The notes under the pieces were generated by a model, which was given only the letters and a program-made list of their open reading frames with translations, did no database searches and was not told the origin of the DNA. 22,563 nt of DNA from a bacterium (lineage in GTDB: Bacteria; ARS69), in assembly GCA_025774805.1 (NCBI GenBank), contig JALGZR010000064.1, positions 1 to 22,563 of the forward strand, given 5' to 3'. Positions within the stretch are counted from its first letter, which is position 1; each line of letters opens with the position of its first letter. The position numbers and the translations under genes are program-made. Positions 11,274-21,233 of this stretch are shown here, piece after piece.

Positions 11274-12623
11274 ATGAAGCTTTCCCGCCGTCCCACCTCC
11301 GGGTGTCCCTGTTCCGGACAGGCTCTCGCCCTCGCGATCGCGTTCGCTCTCGAGAGCGTCGCCGCGCCGGCCCTCGCGTCGTCCCCCCTCGACCGCCTTC
11401 GCTACCAGGAGTTCCCGGAGCTCGAGGGGAAGCGCGTCAGCCGGGTCCTTCTCTTCGGGAACAACCACACGCGGGACGTCGTGCTGCTCCGGGAGATGCG
11501 CACGGAGGAGGGCGCTCCCTTCGTGGGCGAGAACCTCTGGCGCGACTGGGAGCGGCTCGTCGATCTCGGGATCTTCGCCGAGGTCGAGGTCGAGGCGGTG
11601 CCCTCGGAGGACGAGGTCCTGGTCGTCGTGTCGGTGTACGAGAGGCCGCGCTGGTTCGTCGCTCCGATCGTCGACTACGACATCGACGGGGGCGATCTGA
11701 CCGTGGGCTACCGCCTCCGCTTCCGGAACTTCGACGGCCTGAACCGCCGGATCCGGAGCAAAGGACAGATCGGGGAGAAGGACCGCCTCTCGTTCAGCTG
11801 GGAGTCGCCGTGGCTCGGGCGTCATCGTCAACCTCTCTCGCTCGACCTCCGCCTCGAGCTGCCGCGGCCCGATTTGGACGAGCTCCGCACGAGCAGCGTC
11901 GGTGTGGCGACGACCCGCTTCCTCGGGGACTACAAGAAGGTCCGCAAGGGAGTGGGCGCATTCGGTCGACTCGACATCCTCGACCGGGACGGGACGCATC
12001 CCGAGGGGCCGGTCCACCAGCTGAGCCCGGTCATCGGCCTCTCCTACTTCCGCGACAAGCGCAACGTCCGGGTCGATCCGACCCGCGGCACGCTCTTCAG
12101 CACGGGAACCGCCCTCGTGTCGGGATGGACGACCGACGAGATCAGCTACTGGCGCTCCACGATCGACGGGCGGGCGTTCCTCCGCGTCTGGAAGGGCACC
12201 GTGCTCGCCGGGCGCGCCACGACCGTCCTCTCGACCGGGGAGATCCCCGACTACCGGCGGCTCGGCATCGGCGGGGGAGGATCGGTCCGCGGGCAGCCGA
12301 CGGACGTCGAGACCGGGAACAACCTGGCGCGGGCTTCCCTGGAGTGGCGCTTCCCGATCCTGGGCCAGAGGCGCTACCTGCTCCGCATTCCCTTCGTCCC
12401 GCAGCGGATCTCGAACTTCGACCTCCGGATCGACGGGGAGATCTTCGTCGACGCCGGAACCGCCTGGGACGACAGCGTCGGCTTTCGCAGCGCCCGGGTC
12501 CGGACCGGAGCGGGGGTGGGGCTGCGCGTCTTCGTACCCGTGGTCGAGTTGGCCCGCTTCGAGCTCGCGTTCGATCCGAGCGGGAGCCCGAGCCTCTACC
12601 TCCGCGAGGGCAATATCATCTAG
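11274..12623 (+). CDS. Short Omp85-family outer-membrane protein, one POTRA domain
   Basis: The 449-aa protein has an N-terminal signal (hydrophobic 16-36, ending PALASS) and one POTRA domain (about 52-124, VSRVLLFGNNHTRDVVLLREM, then DWERLVDLGIFAEVEVE). A 16-strand-type barrel from about 128 to the end includes RDKRNVRVDPTRGTLF (260-275) and the Omp85 signature GGGGSVRGQP (333-342), where VRGQ is the lid-lock motif. BamA usually has five POTRA domains and TamA three, so this is a minimal member and neither name is safe. The C-terminus ends in isoleucine, not the usual aromatic residue. It probably inserts or exports proteins at the outer membrane. It sits between the sigma operon and nqr, 169 bases downstream of the former. 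Confidence 0.87.
   Translation: MKLSRRPTSGCPCSGQALALAIAFALESVAAPALASSPLDRLRYQEFPELEGKRVSRVLLFGNNHTRDVVLLREMRTEEGAPFVGENLWRDWERLVDLGIFAEVEVEAVPSEDEVLVVVSVYERPRWFVAPIVDYDIDGGDLTVGYRLRFRNFDGLNRRIRSKGQIGEKDRLSFSWESPWLGRHRQPLSLDLRLELPRPDLDELRTSSVGVATTRFLGDYKKVRKGVGAFGRLDILDRDGTHPEGPVHQLSPVIGLSYFRDKRNVRVDPTRGTLFSTGTALVSGWTTDEISYWRSTIDGRAFLRVWKGTVLAGRATTVLSTGEIPDYRRLGIGGGGSVRGQPTDVETGNNLARASLEWRFPILGQRRYLLRIPFVPQRISNFDLRIDGEIFVDAGTAWDDSVGFRSARVRTGAGVGLRVFVPVVELARFELAFDPSGSPSLYLREGNII
12614..12619 (+). promoter_or_regulatory. -10-like TATCAT at the start of the nqr leader
   Basis: TATCAT matches TATAAT at five of six positions and overlaps the last codons of the Omp85 gene. A start point near 12626 would place both leader-element copies inside a roughly 320-base nqr mRNA leader. 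No good -35 is visible at 16-18 bases, so this is tentative. Confidence 0.3.
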
Positions 12624-12946: not shown

Positions 12947-14296
12947 ATGTCCGAAACCAGGATCAAGCGGGGATTCGACGTCCCGTTGAGCGGCGCCCCC
13001 GAGCGCGTCGTCGCGGACGCCCCGCCCCCCGAGACCGTCGCGGTCCGCCCGGTCGAGTTCCGGGCGGTCAAGCCGAAGATCCTCGTGAAGAAGGGGAAGC
13101 AGGTCGCCGCCGGGCAGCCGCTCTTCCTCGATCGGGCGAGACCCGAGATCAAGTTCCCCTCGCCCGGCGGGGGAGAGGTGACCGAGATCCGGCGGGGTCC
13201 GAGACGGGTCTGCAAGGAGATCTTCATCCGGCTGGCGTCCGACGAGCCCTTCCTCGAGCATCCCTCCCACACTCCCGCCCGGGCCGGCTCGCTGACGCGC
13301 GCTCAAGTCGTCGAGATCCTGCTCGATTCGGGAATGTGGACGAGCCTTCGTCGCCGTCCCTTCCATTCGATTCCCGACCCCGAGTCGACCCCCGAAGCGA
13401 TCTTCATCGCCGCCTCCGACTCGAGCCCGCTTCCCTTCGACGCGAAGCTGGCCCTGGAGGGCCGCGAGGACGACTTCCAGCTCGGCATCGACCTTCTCGG
13501 CAAGCTGACCGAGGGGGACGTCCATCTCTGCCTCACCCCGGACACCGCCTCCGCCCCCGTGTTCTCCGGCGCGCGGAACTGCGTGAAGCACACGTTCACC
13601 GGCCCTCACCCCGCCGGTCAGATCGAGGTCCAGATCCACCACGTGCTGCCGTACCGGAAGGGGCGCGAGGTCGCCTACCTCGACTGCCAGGACGCCGCCG
13701 GGATCGGGGAGCTCTTCCGGACGGGGCGCTACCCGGTGAGCCGGGTCGTCGCCGTCGGCGGAGAGAAGGCGCCCGACCCGAAGCACTTCCGCACGCGGCG
13801 CGGGGTCAGCGTGGATCTGCTCCAGCGGGGGCGCCACTCGCCCGCCTCGACCCGGATCATCTCCGGAAGCGCCCTCAACGGGCGGATGGTCAGCTCCGCC
13901 TGCGGGCTCGGGCACTACGACTCGAAGTTCTCCCTCCTCCCCGAAGGGGACGCGCCCGAGTTTCTCGGATGGATGCGACCGGGCCTCGACCGGATCAGCC
14001 GGTTCCGCGCCTTCGCCTCCTCTCTCATTCCCCCGAAGAAGCCGCGCATCGACACGAATCTCGGCGGCGGGGTCCGGGCCCACGTGGCCACCGAGATCTA
14101 CGAAAGCGTCTGCGCCGTCGACATTCTCCCCGCGTATCTCATGAAGAGCCTGGTCATCCAGGACATCGAAGAGGCGGAGAGTCTGGGTCTCGCCGACTGC
14201 GCCGAGTGCGGCCTCTGCACGTACGTCTGTCCCTCGAAGATCGAGTTCGGGGAGATCATCGAGCGAGGGATCCTCGAGATCCTGGAGGATGGGTAG
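12947..14296 (+). CDS. nqrA: Na+-translocating NADH:quinone oxidoreductase subunit A, with RnfC-like 4-Cys motif
   Basis: NqrA is the peripheral subunit of the Na+-NQR complex, which oxidises NADH, reduces quinone and pumps Na+ across the inner membrane. The 449-aa product matches the family in length and motifs: RIKRGFDVPLSGAPERVV at the start, KFPSPGGGEVTEIRRGPRRV, LLDSGMWTSLRRRPFHSIP, FTGPHPAGQIEVQIHHVLP and IISGSALNGRMV. Unusually, the C-terminus reads CAECGLCTYVCPSKIEFG (residues 418 onward), a complete CxxCxxCxxxCP ferredoxin-type motif. RnfC uses such motifs to hold [4Fe-4S]; Vibrio NqrA keeps only a remnant of it. ATG 12947 has GAGG five bases upstream. It is first in the operon and is followed by nqrB after 3 bases. 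Confidence 0.96.
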   Translation: MSETRIKRGFDVPLSGAPERVVADAPPPETVAVRPVEFRAVKPKILVKKGKQVAAGQPLFLDRARPEIKFPSPGGGEVTEIRRGPRRVCKEIFIRLASDEPFLEHPSHTPARAGSLTRAQVVEILLDSGMWTSLRRRPFHSIPDPESTPEAIFIAASDSSPLPFDAKLALEGREDDFQLGIDLLGKLTEGDVHLCLTPDTASAPVFSGARNCVKHTFTGPHPAGQIEVQIHHVLPYRKGREVAYLDCQDAAGIGELFRTGRYPVSRVVAVGGEKAPDPKHFRTRRGVSVDLLQRGRHSPASTRIISGSALNGRMVSSACGLGHYDSKFSLLPEGDAPEFLGWMRPGLDRISRFRAFASSLIPPKKPRIDTNLGGGVRAHVATEIYESVCAVDILPAYLMKSLVIQDIEEAESLGLADCAECGLCTYVCPSKIEFGEIIERGILEILEDG

Positions 14297-14299
14297 AGG

Positions 14300-15496
14300 A
14301 TGGACCTGCCAGAGAAACGGGGTTCCTGGAAGGGATTCGAGAGAGTCCGGCCGCACTTCGCGCCGGGCGGAAAGCTCGAGAAGCTCTTCCCGCTGTTCGA
14401 GGCGATGGAGAGCTTCGTGTTCGTTCCGGGGAAGACCACGCGCAGCACCGTGCACGTTCGCGACGCCATGGACATGAAGCGGATGATGTCGGTGGTGGTC
14501 GTGGCGCTCCTGCCCGCGACCGTCTTCGGCATGTACAACATCGGCCTCCAGAAGCTGACCGCGCTCGGGCAGACGGCCGACGTCGGCTCCTGTCTTCTGC
14601 AGGGCGCCTGGCACATGCTGCCGATCATCATCGTGTCGTACGTGGCCGGTGGCTTCTGGGAAGTGCTCTTCGCCGTGATCCGGAAGCACGAGATCAACGA
14701 GGGGTTCCTGGTCACGGGCATTCTGTTCCCGCTGACCTGCCCGCCGACGCTCCCGCTGTGGATGGTGGCCGCGGGGGCCACGTTCGGGGTGGTGATCGGG
14801 AAGGAGGTCTTCGGGGGCACCGGGATGAACATCCTCAATCCCGCGCTGACCGCCCGCGCCTTCGTCTTCTTCGCCTACCCGGGCAGCATCTCCGGCGACA
14901 AGGTCTGGACCGCGGTCGATCCCGCCTCCGACGCGCTCGTCGACGGCTTCTCGGGGGCGACCCCGCTCGCGATCGCGGCCGCGTCGGAGGGGCCCGGCGT
15001 CACGACGGCCCTCGCGGAGGCCGGTTACCAGTTCCGCGACATGACGGTCGGGGTCCTTCCCGGCAGCATGGGCGAGGGGTCGGCGATCGCCTGCCTCCTC
15101 GGCGCGATCCTGCTGCTCGTCACCGGGGTCGGATCCTGGCGCATCATGAGCTCGATGGTCGTCGGCGGTCTCGTGGGAGGTGCGCTCATGAACGCGATCG
15201 CCGGACCGGCGTCCGCGGGCATCATGCACCTGCCCCCGCACTGGCACCTCGTGATGGGAGGGTTCGCGTTCGGCTGCGTCTTCATGGCCACCGATCCCGT
15301 CTCCGCCGCGGCGACCTCGGTCGGAAAGCTGATCTACGGATTCCTGATCGGGGTCCTCGCGGTGCTGGTGCGGGCGGTGAACCCCGCCTACCCCGAGGGA
15401 GTCATGCTCGCGATCCTCTTCCTCAACGTCTTCGCCCCCTTGATCGACCACTACGTCGTCAAGGCGAACATCAAGAGGAGGCTGGCCCGTGTTTGA
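14300..15496 (+). CDS. nqrB: Na+-NQR subunit B
   Basis: NqrB is the main membrane subunit, carrying covalent FMN, riboflavin and the quinone/Na+ pathway. The 398-aa product has a cytoplasmic N-terminus (to about 60), then about ten membrane helices. The flavinylation motif SGAT lies at 218-221, making T221 the predicted FMN-phosphoester residue. The conserved quinone-site helix region EINEGFLVTGILFPLTCPPTLP (131-152) is intact, as are GMNILNPALTARAFVFFAYP and AFGCVFMATDPVSAA. It starts 3 bases after nqrA and overlaps nqrC by 8 bases. Attachment of FMN requires ApbE, which is not encoded in the window. Confidence 0.97.
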   Translation: MDLPEKRGSWKGFERVRPHFAPGGKLEKLFPLFEAMESFVFVPGKTTRSTVHVRDAMDMKRMMSVVVVALLPATVFGMYNIGLQKLTALGQTADVGSCLLQGAWHMLPIIIVSYVAGGFWEVLFAVIRKHEINEGFLVTGILFPLTCPPTLPLWMVAAGATFGVVIGKEVFGGTGMNILNPALTARAFVFFAYPGSISGDKVWTAVDPASDALVDGFSGATPLAIAAASEGPGVTTALAEAGYQFRDMTVGVLPGSMGEGSAIACLLGAILLLVTGVGSWRIMSSMVVGGLVGGALMNAIAGPASAGIMHLPPHWHLVMGGFAFGCVFMATDPVSAAATSVGKLIYGFLIGVLAVLVRAVNPAYPEGVMLAILFLNVFAPLIDHYVVKANIKRRLARV

Positions 15497-16205
15497 TCTC
15501 CGAGCGGTCCGCTTCGCGATCATCGTCTGCCTGAGCTGCAGCATCTTCGTCTCCGGCGCGGCCCTCGGCCTCCGCGACCGGCAGGAGGCGAACAAGGCGC
15601 TCGACATGCGCCGGAACATCCTGAAGTCGGTCGGGCTTCTCGACGAGAGCGTCACCCGGGAACAGATCGGCCCGCTCTTCGAGGAGAGGATGCGGGGCTC
15701 CGTGCTCACGCCGGACGGAAGGGTGGTCGAGAACCGCACCCCGGAGGACGTCGACCCGGAAAAGGAGCCCGAGCTCCTCTTCCTCTACGAGCGGATCGAG
15801 AACGAGGAAACGGTCGCGTACACGTTCCCGATCTCGGGGAAGGGGCTCTGGTCGACGCTGTACGGCTACTTCGCGCTCGAGGCCGACCTGGTGACGGTGC
15901 GAGGCATCACGTTCTACCAGCACGGCGAGACGCCCGGTCTCGGGGGCGAGATCGAGAAGCCGTGGTTCCAGAGCAACTTCGTCGGCAAGAAGATCCTCGA
16001 CGCGACCGGCGCGCTGCGGTCGGTCACGGTCGTCAAGGGAGCCGCGAAGAACAAGTACCCGGACGAGCTCGAGCACTACGTCGACGGAATCTCGGGCGCG
16101 ACGATCACCGCGGACGCCGTGACCGTCCTGCTGAAGGCGGACCTCGAGCGCTACGAGCCCTACTTCGCGAAGCTCCGCGGCGGGGCGGGGGAGGAGACCT
16201 CATGA
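15489..16205 (+). CDS. nqrC: Na+-NQR subunit C
   Basis: NqrC carries the second covalently bound FMN on its periplasmic domain. The 238-aa product has one N-terminal helix (about 7-27), the segment [22 protein letters not shown] (147-168), and the FMN motif DGISGATIT, in which T205 is the expected attachment residue. The start is GTG at 15489 with GAGGAGG seven bases upstream, overlapping nqrB by 8 bases. The stop overlaps the nqrD start (ATGA). Length and motifs are ordinary. Confidence 0.96.
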
Positions 16206-16891
16206 GCACGGCGCAGGCCCCCTCGAAGGCGCCGGCGAAGAAGCACTTCTCCATCGGCGATCTGCTCACGCTCGACAAGAAGAGCCGCAAGGTCGTGGCC
16301 GATCCCCTGTCCGAGAACAACCCGATCACGGTGCAGGTGCTCGGCATCTGCTCGGCCCTGGCCGTGACGGTCCAGATGCAGACCGCGGTCGTGATGTCGC
16401 TGGCCGTGGTCTTCGTCCTCACGACGTCGAACACGGTCGTCAGCCTCATGCGCAACTTCATCCCCTCCCAGATCCGGATCATCGTGCAGCTCTCGGTGAT
16501 CGCGAGCCTGGTGATCGTGGCCGATCAGGTTCTGCGCGCGTTCCTCTACGACATCTCCCGCCAGCTCTCGGTGTTCGTGGGGCTCATCATCACGAACTGC
16601 ATCATCATGGGCCGGGCGGAGGCGTTCGCGATGGCCAACCCTCCGGGCAAGGCGTTCCTGGACGGGCTCGGCAACGCCCTCGGCTACGCCGCGGTGCTCT
16701 GCGCCGTCGCCTTCGGCCGCGAGCTGTTCGGGAGCGGCACGCTCTTCGGGTTCCAGGTGGTGCCCCAGGCCCTCTACGACGCGGGCTACGTGAACATGGG
16801 ATTGATGGTCATCCCGCCGGGCGCGTTCATCCTGCTGGGCCTTCTCATCTGGGCGCAGCGTTCCGTCACCGGCTTCGCCGAGGATCGATAG
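16202..16891 (+). CDS. nqrD: Na+-NQR subunit D
   Basis: NqrD pairs with NqrE to form the membrane core that holds an intramembrane [2Fe-2S] centre. Both ligands are visible: C50 in [10 protein letters not shown] and C133 in [14 protein letters not shown]. Six helices are expected. The 229-aa protein has about 20 extra N-terminal residues ([20 protein letters not shown]) compared with the roughly 210-aa Vibrio protein. ATG 16202 overlaps the nqrC stop. nqrE follows after 9 bases. Maturation of this centre needs NqrM, encoded on the other strand at 21024-21233. Confidence 0.96.
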
Positions 16892-16900
16892 GAGGCTGAC

Positions 16901-17509
16901 ATGGAGGCGTATCTGAGTCTGGCCGTCCAGGCGATCTTCGTACAGAACATCCTCCTGGCGTTCTTCCTGGGGATGTGCTCGTTCCTGGCGGTGTCCAAGA
17001 AGATCGAGACCGGGATCGGTCTCGGGGCGGCGGTGATCTTCGTGCTCATGATCACGATGCCGCTCAACTGGTTCCTGCACGAGAAGCTGCTGAGAAAGGG
17101 AGCGCTGGAGTGGGCGGGGCTTCCCGACGTGGACATGAGCTTCCTGAACTTCATCGTGTTCATCGCCACGATCGCCGCCTCGGTCCAGCTCGTGGAGATG
17201 ATCCTCGATCGCTACAGCCCGAGGCTCTACAACGCGCTCGGCATCTTCCTTCCGCTGATCGCCGTGAACTGCGCGATCCTCGGCTCCTCCCTGTTCATGG
17301 TCGAGCGGAGCTACGACTTCGGCGAGACGGTCGTCTTCGGGCTCGGATCCGGGATCGGATGGGCGCTCGCGATCGTCGCCATGGCCGCGATCCGGACCAA
17401 GATCCGCTACTCGAACGTTCCGCCCGGACTCCGCGGGCTCGGCATCACCATGTTGATCACCGGTCTGATGGCGCTGGCCTTCCAGTGCTTCGCCGGAATC
17501 CAATTGTAG
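16901..17509 (+). CDS. nqrE: Na+-NQR subunit E
   Basis: NqrE is the second half of the NqrD/E pair. The 202-aa, six-helix product has C26 ([14 protein letters not shown]) and C124 ([15 protein letters not shown]), the two cysteines that complete the intramembrane [2Fe-2S] site. The start follows AGGAGG five bases upstream. It is of standard length and intact, and nqrF follows after 17 bases. Confidence 0.97.
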
Positions 17510-17526: not shown

Positions 17527-18759
17527 GTGAACCTGATCCAGATGGTCGGCCTGGCGGCTCTCATCTTCACCGGGACGATCGTGCTGCTCGTGATGCTCTT
17601 GGGCGTCGCGAAGTACAAGCTCGTCGCCTCCGGTCCGGTCCGGCTGCTGATCAACGACGACGAGGAGAAGAGCCCGACGGTCGACGCGGGCCAGACGCTC
17701 CTGAACGCACTGACGGCGGCGAAGATCTTTCTTCCGTCGGCGTGCGGGGGCGGCGGCACCTGCGGAATGTGCAAGTGTCAGGTCCTCGAGGGAGGGGGAG
17801 ACGTCCTCCCGACCGAGATGGGCCACCTGTCCCGGAGCGAGCAGCAAGATCACGTCCGGCTCGCCTGTCAGCTGAAGGTCAAGAGCGACATGAAGCTCCA
17901 GGTCGCGCCGGAGATCTTCAGCATCAAGAAGTTCCAGACCACCGTGGCCTCGAACCGCAATGTCGCGACGTTCATCAAGGAGCTCATCCTCGTCATCGAC
18001 GAGGGGCAGGAGCTGGACTTCCGCGCGGGGGGCTACATCCAGATCGACGTCCCGCCCTACGAGCTAGACTACACCGAGTTCGACATCGAAGAGGAGTACC
18101 GGGCGGACTGGGACAAGTACGATCTCTGGCGCTACCACGCGTCCAACGACGAGCTCATCTACCGCGCCTACTCGATGGCGAACCACCCCGCCGAGGGGAA
18201 CCGGGTGATGCTCAACGTGCGGATCGCCTCGCCACCCCCCGGTCTCGACGTCCCGCCCGGCATTGCGAGCTCCTGGATCTTCAACCTGAAGCCGGGCGAC
18301 AAGGTCACGATCTCGGGTCCGTACGGGGAGTTCTTCGCCAAGGAGACGAAGAGGGAGATGTGCTTCATCGGCGGCGGCGCGGGCATGGCCCCGATGCGCA
18401 GCCACATCTTCGACCTCTTCCACACGAAGAAGACGCGCGATCGGAAGGTGACGTTCTGGTACGGGGCCCGCTCCCTGCGGGAGGCCTTCTACCAGAAGGA
18501 CTTCGACGACATCGCCGAGGACTACGACAACTTCGACTGGACGCTGGCCCTCTCCGAGCCGCTTCCCGAGGACAACTGGGAAGGGGCCACCGGGTTCATC
18601 CACCAGGTGCTCTACGACGACTACTTGAAGAATCACCCGGATCCGACGGAGATCGAGTACTACATGTGCGGTCCGCCGCTCATGAACTCGGCGGTGAACA
18701 AGCTGCTCGACGGACTCGGCGTCGACCCGAGCATGATCGCGTTCGACGACTTCGGGTAA
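17527..18759 (+). CDS. nqrF: Na+-NQR subunit F (NADH dehydrogenase subunit)
   Basis: NqrF is the electron entry subunit: it takes electrons from NADH through FAD to a [2Fe-2S] cluster on the cytoplasmic side. The 410-aa protein has one N-terminal helix (about 4-28), a ferredoxin domain with C73, C79, C82 and C114 (SACGGGGTCGMCKC and LACQLKV), the FAD motif RAYSMANHP (213-221), the nucleotide motif GGGAGMAPM (282-290) and CGPPLM (381-386). The start is taken as GTG 17527, with a GGGGGGAA tract upstream; an ATG five codons later is an alternative. It is last in the operon and ends 9 bases from the stop of the convergent gene, with no clear terminator between. Confidence 0.97.
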   Translation: MNLIQMVGLAALIFTGTIVLLVMLLGVAKYKLVASGPVRLLINDDEEKSPTVDAGQTLLNALTAAKIFLPSACGGGGTCGMCKCQVLEGGGDVLPTEMGHLSRSEQQDHVRLACQLKVKSDMKLQVAPEIFSIKKFQTTVASNRNVATFIKELILVIDEGQELDFRAGGYIQIDVPPYELDYTEFDIEEEYRADWDKYDLWRYHASNDELIYRAYSMANHPAEGNRVMLNVRIASPPPGLDVPPGIASSWIFNLKPGDKVTISGPYGEFFAKETKREMCFIGGGAGMAPMRSHIFDLFHTKKTRDRKVTFWYGARSLREAFYQKDFDDIAEDYDNFDWTLALSEPLPEDNWEGATGFIHQVLYDDYLKNHPDPTEIEYYMCGPPLMNSAVNKLLDGLGVDPSMIAFDDFG

Positions 18760-21023: not shown

Positions 21024-21233
21024 CTAAGCCGAGCCCCTCGGGTCCTTCTCCGGGTCCCTCTCCGGGCACTCGTCGAAGGGTCGACCGCACGCGCCGCACG
21101 TGCCGCCCCACCTGCCGAAGAGCCGCGCCGCTCCGCCGCACGATCCCTGGATCGGCCGGCGCAAGAGCACCGTGCCTACGGAGAGAAGCGCCACCGCGCC
21201 CACGAAGAACCCGATTCCGAGCAGAATCTCCAT
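21024..21233 (-). CDS. nqrM: NqrM, Na+-NQR maturation protein (DUF539)
   Basis: The 69-aa protein has one N-terminal membrane helix (about 4-24) followed by RRPIQGSCGG, then CGACGRPFDEC. This cysteine pattern, after an 'R-PI-GSCGG' turn, is the DUF539/NqrM signature. NqrM is required to deliver or assemble the iron centre of NqrD/NqrE. In many genomes it lies directly after nqrF; here it is on the opposite strand, separated from nqrF by the TMTC-like gene. Its own promoter places the transcription start at or next to the ATG, so translation is probably leaderless; no ribosome site is present. Confidence 0.9.
   Translation of the reverse strand: MEILLGIGFFVGAVALLSVGTVLLRRPIQGSCGGAARLFGRWGGTCGACGRPFDECPERDPEKDPRGSA

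Follow-up and report, generated by a model that had tools for sequence, protein, structure and literature searches.

The window (the whole stretch of DNA analysed, 22,563 nucleotides) carries an nqrABCDEF operon whose first gene encodes an NqrA with a predicted iron-sulfur site (Table 1). The nqrA product scored 369.7 bits against the NqrA model TIGR01936 (curated cut-off 321.05) and exceeded the Pfam cut-offs for NQRA_N, NQRA_2nd and NQRA_SLBB (94.4, 141.3 and 31.8 bits, respectively); its co-encoding with nqrB-F likewise identifies it as NqrA. Its score against the RnfC model TIGR01945 was 54.2 bits, obtained from the C-terminus only and below the curated cut-off of 245.95, and residues 388-439 matched rnfC models by themselves (E 8.3e-15). 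No match to the FMN-binding Complex1_51K domain was found by Pfam in the window NqrA, which also lacks the GGAxFPT motif, and of the two complete CxxCxxCxxxCP motifs by which RnfC is recognized, motif 1 retains its fourth cysteine alone. An AlphaFold2 model of the protein (mean pLDDT 91.4; ten-residue means of 81-92 over residues 381-449 and down to 63 over residues 331-380) matched V. cholerae NqrA with a Z score of 50 and RnfC with Z scores of 26-29. The window protein is a true NqrA in an nqrABCDEF operon: the preliminary description had read the locus as NQR and not RNF, and the operon, the TIGR01936 score above cut-off and the rnfC score below it bear this out.

Table 1. Features of the nqr region, in coordinates of the window.
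Feature	Position	Strand	Remarks
nqrA, 449 aa	12947..14296	+	start ATG at 12947; C-terminus a partial RnfC-type ferredoxin domain
Cys389 codon	14111..14113	+	aligns with the fourth Cys of RnfC motif 1; would be a ligand of the retained cluster
C418xxC421xxC424xxxC428-P429	14198..14233	+	counterpart of RnfC motif 2; C418, C421 and C424 are proposed ligands
nqrB	14300..15496	+	FMN and riboflavin subunit, quinone site; TIGR01937 and NF003756 above cut-off
nqrC	15489..16205	+	TIGR01938 200.9 bits, cut-off 144
nqrD	16202..16891	+	TIGR01939 292.6 bits, cut-off 244.85
nqrE	16901..17509	+	TIGR01940 305.9 bits, cut-off 247.55
nqrF	17527..18759	+	NADH dehydrogenase, 2Fe-2S and FAD; TIGR01941 619.9 bits, cut-off 295
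probable nqrM	21024..21233	-	[2Fe-2S] maturation factor of NqrD/E; 69 aa, CGG...CxxC; Pfam PF04400 14.3 bits

Directly 5' of nqrA, positions 11274-12623 encode a BamA/Omp85-like barrel protein of 449 aa that scores under the OM_YaeT cut-off. The NqrM announced in the preliminary description corresponds to a plausible NqrM-like ORF that lies away from the nqr operon on the opposite strand, but its match to the Pfam family is weak, falling below the cut-off of 22 bits. Elsewhere in the same genome (G000:C267, L006), an rnfC that has both motifs lies about 6 kb from an rnfB; RNF and NQR therefore coexist in this organism.

Translation confirmed that the C-terminus of NqrA contains C418, C421, C424 and C428-P429, as first described, with codons starting at 14198, 14207 and 14216 and the Cys-Pro pair at 14228-14233. 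The motif reads CAECGLCTYVCP and the protein ends ...IYESVCAVDILPAYLMKSLVIQDIEEAESLGLADCAECGLCTYVCPSKIEFGEIIERGILEILEDG. Its spacing is exactly that of RnfC, as the preliminary description had proposed, but the motif by itself would not suffice to make a cluster. In 2[4Fe-4S] ferredoxins, each cluster is held by three cysteines of one motif and the Cys-Pro cysteine of the other, so the last cysteine of the motif serves the other cluster. The earlier list of four cysteines was correct but omitted a fifth conserved one, C389 (context YESVCAVDILP), the likely fourth ligand. When the window protein is aligned with the RnfC encoded in the same genome, C389 falls on the last of the four cysteines of RnfC motif 1 (DACPIFLNP in RnfC, SVCAVDILP in the window protein), and the other three are replaced by His, Thr and Tyr. 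When the ferredoxin ligand rule is applied to this RnfC-type register, C389, C418, C421 and C424 make up one complete site, and C428 would be the lone leftover ligand of a second, lost cluster. The ligands of that lost cluster, cysteines 1-3 of motif 1 and the last of motif 2, have a C3 to C4' spacing of 43, which we take to resemble that of NuoF cluster N3 in complex I. On this basis the lost cluster would be the counterpart of the one adjoining FMN, and the retained cluster that of the membrane-facing one. We therefore consider it probable that a [4Fe-4S] cluster corresponding to the membrane-facing cluster of RnfC is bound by C389, C418, C421 and C424. The Pfam Fer4_17 score of the window NqrA (21.3 bits) is slightly under the gathering cut-off of 22.2; by score the protein is not assigned to the 4Fe-4S ferredoxin domain family, yet it may function like a member.

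The five cysteines are strictly conserved in the small clade to which the window protein belongs, which comprises five genomes of the phylum (four full-length NqrAs and one fragment) and includes metagenome-assembled genomes labelled Gemmatimonadetes bacterium HKST-UBA01 and Gemmatimonadota bacterium DHS20C21. The other three full-length proteins are 53-65% identical to the window NqrA, and in the alignment of the four, C389, C418, C421, C424 and C428 are the sole invariant cysteines of the window protein's ten; the remaining five are unconserved. The NqrA fragment from the fifth genome likewise retains all five. Random loss of cysteines among close relatives, which the preliminary description had said would argue against a cluster, was thus not observed. 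The motif is not a chance occurrence, since it is conserved in all relatives examined and, given the composition of the protein, CxxCxxCxxxCP would arise with a probability of about 1e-5; a sequencing error is likewise ruled out by residues common to five genomes. The same cysteine codon is used at each site in all four full-length nqrA genes, so the codons are uninformative for dating the retention of the cysteines. No relatives of the window NqrA were found on the viral contigs searched.

Mapping the cysteines across the NqrA/RnfC family, a check proposed at the outset, resolved three discrete states. The survey covered 137 distinct proteins of the NqrA family, almost all of them taken from whole genomes; the sample is non-random, with many rows from Desulfobacterota, which were deliberately searched. 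All eight RnfC cysteines are present in 75 of the 137, a set in which three members (L032-L034) are RnfC-like and belong to hybrid operons; five are present in 4 (the window clade), and the other 58 are canonical proteins without the site. Position 389 is Cys in all window-clade NqrAs and never Cys in the canonical proteins, 42 of which have Met. Every canonical NqrA (58/58), but no protein of the cysteine types (0/79), has two additional residues inserted between the sites equivalent to C418 and C424. Cysteines at 424 and 428 are kept in 40 of the 58 canonical proteins, V. cholerae NqrA included, in agreement with the partial remnant CTFVCP noted earlier in Vibrio. By themselves these two residues mean little, because they persist in canonical NqrAs, of which that of V. 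cholerae has no cofactor (PMC12174285).

An NqrA with a predicted iron-sulfur site is not unique to the window clade, as both motifs are present in most of the NqrAs examined from Desulfobacterota. The eight-cysteine proteins are mostly from Desulfobacterota, where Desulfosarcina and relatives encode them in nqrABCDEF operons; NqrB and NqrF of these bacteria are ∼48-56% and ∼53-61% identical to the window proteins, respectively. The FMN motif GGAxFPT is missing from the Desulfobacterota NqrAs inspected, as it is from the window clade. Six eight-cysteine NqrAs scored 275-323 against the NCBIfam nqrA cut-off of 321.05, that is, under or barely over it. The Desulfosarcina widdelii protein (L047) scored 281.7 with TIGR01936 while exceeding the Pfam cut-offs for NQRA_N and NQRA_2nd as well as those for Fer4_7, Fer4_10 and Fer4. 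It shares with the window NqrA the RnfC-type cysteines, the operon, the missing FMN motif and ∼39% identity, but differs in having both motifs (eight cysteines) and a bulky residue at NqrB position 141. One further eight-cysteine NqrA (L175, genome G601) did not group firmly with those of Desulfobacterota on the tree. Sulfate-reducer genome papers list the Nqr complex, with its cysteines unmentioned in the passages concerned (PMC2702500, PMC4046663).

Canonical NqrA (V. cholerae, PDB 8A1Y, 7XK3) has the whole fold, the operon, the NQRA_N, NQRA_2nd and NQRA_SLBB domains and the lack of an FMN motif in common with the window protein, but is without cysteines 389, 418 and 421 as a set, and its motif is longer by two residues. 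RnfC (PDB 9ERI, 7ZC6, 8AHX) has a homologous fold and includes the ligand set of the retained cluster as one of two; unlike the window NqrA, it possesses the FMN domain and both motifs. Additional operons contain subunits of both systems. At L035 and L037 (genomes G148 and G005), an A subunit resembling RnfC, with both motifs, is encoded together with NqrB-E homologues and a reductase of the NqrF type. The portion read showed no polyferredoxin like RnfB, and these operons are possible NQR/RNF hybrids. A similar operon (L036:9578-17768) has the NqrF-like 2Fe-2S part fused to a different C-terminal domain, followed by two more iron-sulfur proteins.

The partner subunit was inspected for its flavin and quinone sites. 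Window NqrB, when aligned to that of V. cholerae, retains Gly-Gly at 140-141, the DGFSGAT flavinylation motif and the inspected residues for riboflavin and FMN; since the quinone-contact glycine is kept, quinone reduction is still expected. Position 141 (V. cholerae Gly141) is occupied by Gly in all 5 window-clade matches and in 39 of the 43 canonical ones. It is Phe, Leu, Tyr or Ser in all 63 eight-cysteine matches, the three hybrid operons left out; such Desulfobacterota loci include L045, L047, L050, L054, L056 and L058. A bulky residue here was not taken to prove loss of the quinone site, as Prevotella NqrB has Leu at 141 and its NQR is reported to use menaquinone (PMC10739449). The non-Gly residues may instead reflect menaquinone use. 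Window-clade genomes encode heme-copper oxidases and MqnC, and MenD gave no match above cut-off in them; menaquinone synthesis by the futalosine (MqnC) route is therefore likely.

Known electron paths suggest what a retained cluster might do. In RNF, electrons pass from the RnfD riboflavin to [4Fe-4S]RnfC-2 over 11.7 Å, then to RnfC-1, FMN and NAD+ (PMC9588780), and in V. cholerae NQR, the NqrB riboflavin delivers electrons to quinone over 11.6 Å near Gly141 (PMC10643135). We propose that the window protein is a true NqrA that would have kept a single [4Fe-4S] cluster of the two present in an RnfC-like ancestor, and that this cluster probably faces the riboflavin in NqrB beside the quinone site, with which flavin it would exchange electrons. 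The window NqrA has neither FMN nor a second cluster, so its retained cluster would act as a side station, most likely a one-electron store for the two-electron reduction of menaquinone; failing that, it would stabilise the domain that grips NqrB.

A redox-active cluster exchanging electrons with the NqrB riboflavin is the reading to which we give a slight and tentative preference. The same cluster could be purely structural, holding the C-terminal domain against NqrB outside electron transfer, so that the two readings part only at the electron-exchange step. The loss of FMN and the second cluster leaves no onward path inside NqrA, NqrB retains its own quinone-site glycine, and canonical NqrA, for which a stabilising role has been suggested (PMC12174285), functions without a cluster. 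A placement like that of the membrane-facing RNF cluster, 11.7 Å from riboflavin (PMC9588780), would nevertheless make electron exchange hard to avoid, and we regard a purely structural role as somewhat unlikely. That the four cysteines bind zinc or form an iron-free thiol site appears very improbable: CxxC pairs are able to bind zinc and the iron is predicted here from sequence, but the residues are in exact register with RnfC motif 2 and the last cysteine of motif 1, and the eight-cysteine relative from D. widdelii exceeds the Fer4_7, Fer4_10 and Fer4 cut-offs. A clade in the course of losing its cluster, with the cysteines kept by common descent only, would fit the already broken motif 1, whose first three cysteines are gone; invariance of five of ten cysteines at 53-65% identity, with the other five unconserved, makes such decay quite improbable. 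We also consider it decidedly unlikely that NQRs with an iron-sulfur NqrA make up a functional class of their own, with NqrA as a redox-active outlet. Were this so, the Desulfobacterota form, with two clusters, no FMN and a bulky NqrB residue 141, would send electrons through NqrA to another acceptor, and the one-cluster form of the window would be an intermediate between it and quinone-only NQR.

The history of the site was addressed with trees and topology tests. In a careful tree of NqrA (motif region omitted) plus NqrB, rooted with RNF, the window clade received 100/100 support and joined canonical NqrA (94/93), apart from Desulfobacterota. Canonical NqrA was monophyletic in none of 200 bootstrap trees. 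These placements of the clade among early canonical lineages would suit a regain, in which a lineage inside canonical NqrA recovered the motif by recombination with rnfC or an eight-cysteine nqrA, an alternative that bears on history and not on function. A topology in which the window clade lies outside a monophyletic canonical NqrA was nevertheless not rejected by AU tests (p 0.145; p 0.77 with a larger quick tree), and the two-residue insertion present in 58/58 canonical proteins is absent from the window clade; we judge a regain fairly unlikely. Grouping of the window clade with the eight-cysteine proteins was not rejected either (p 0.69, quick tree), and the AU tests left unsettled the placements suggested by the first quick trees. 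The simplest account is a stepwise loss that began with FMN and went on to one cluster and then to both, because all canonical NqrAs share the insertion.

NqrA, a subunit of a sodium-pumping enzyme of respiration, is stated in the literature to have lost its cofactors or to have none (PMC4014512, PMC12174285, PMC11889175), and the canonical protein is described as cofactor-free (PMC12174285, PMC11889175). A literature search, with most subscription journals outside its reach, found no published account of an iron-sulfur NqrA. Taken together, the window NqrA appears to be a known enzyme subunit in a new form, with a predicted iron-sulfur site. Extant NqrAs with two, one and no cluster sites would show cofactor loss in steps, and comparing these forms would make the question of NqrA's role testable. 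They further suggest that NQR complexes of different lineages, common sulfate reducers included, carry different sets of cofactors.
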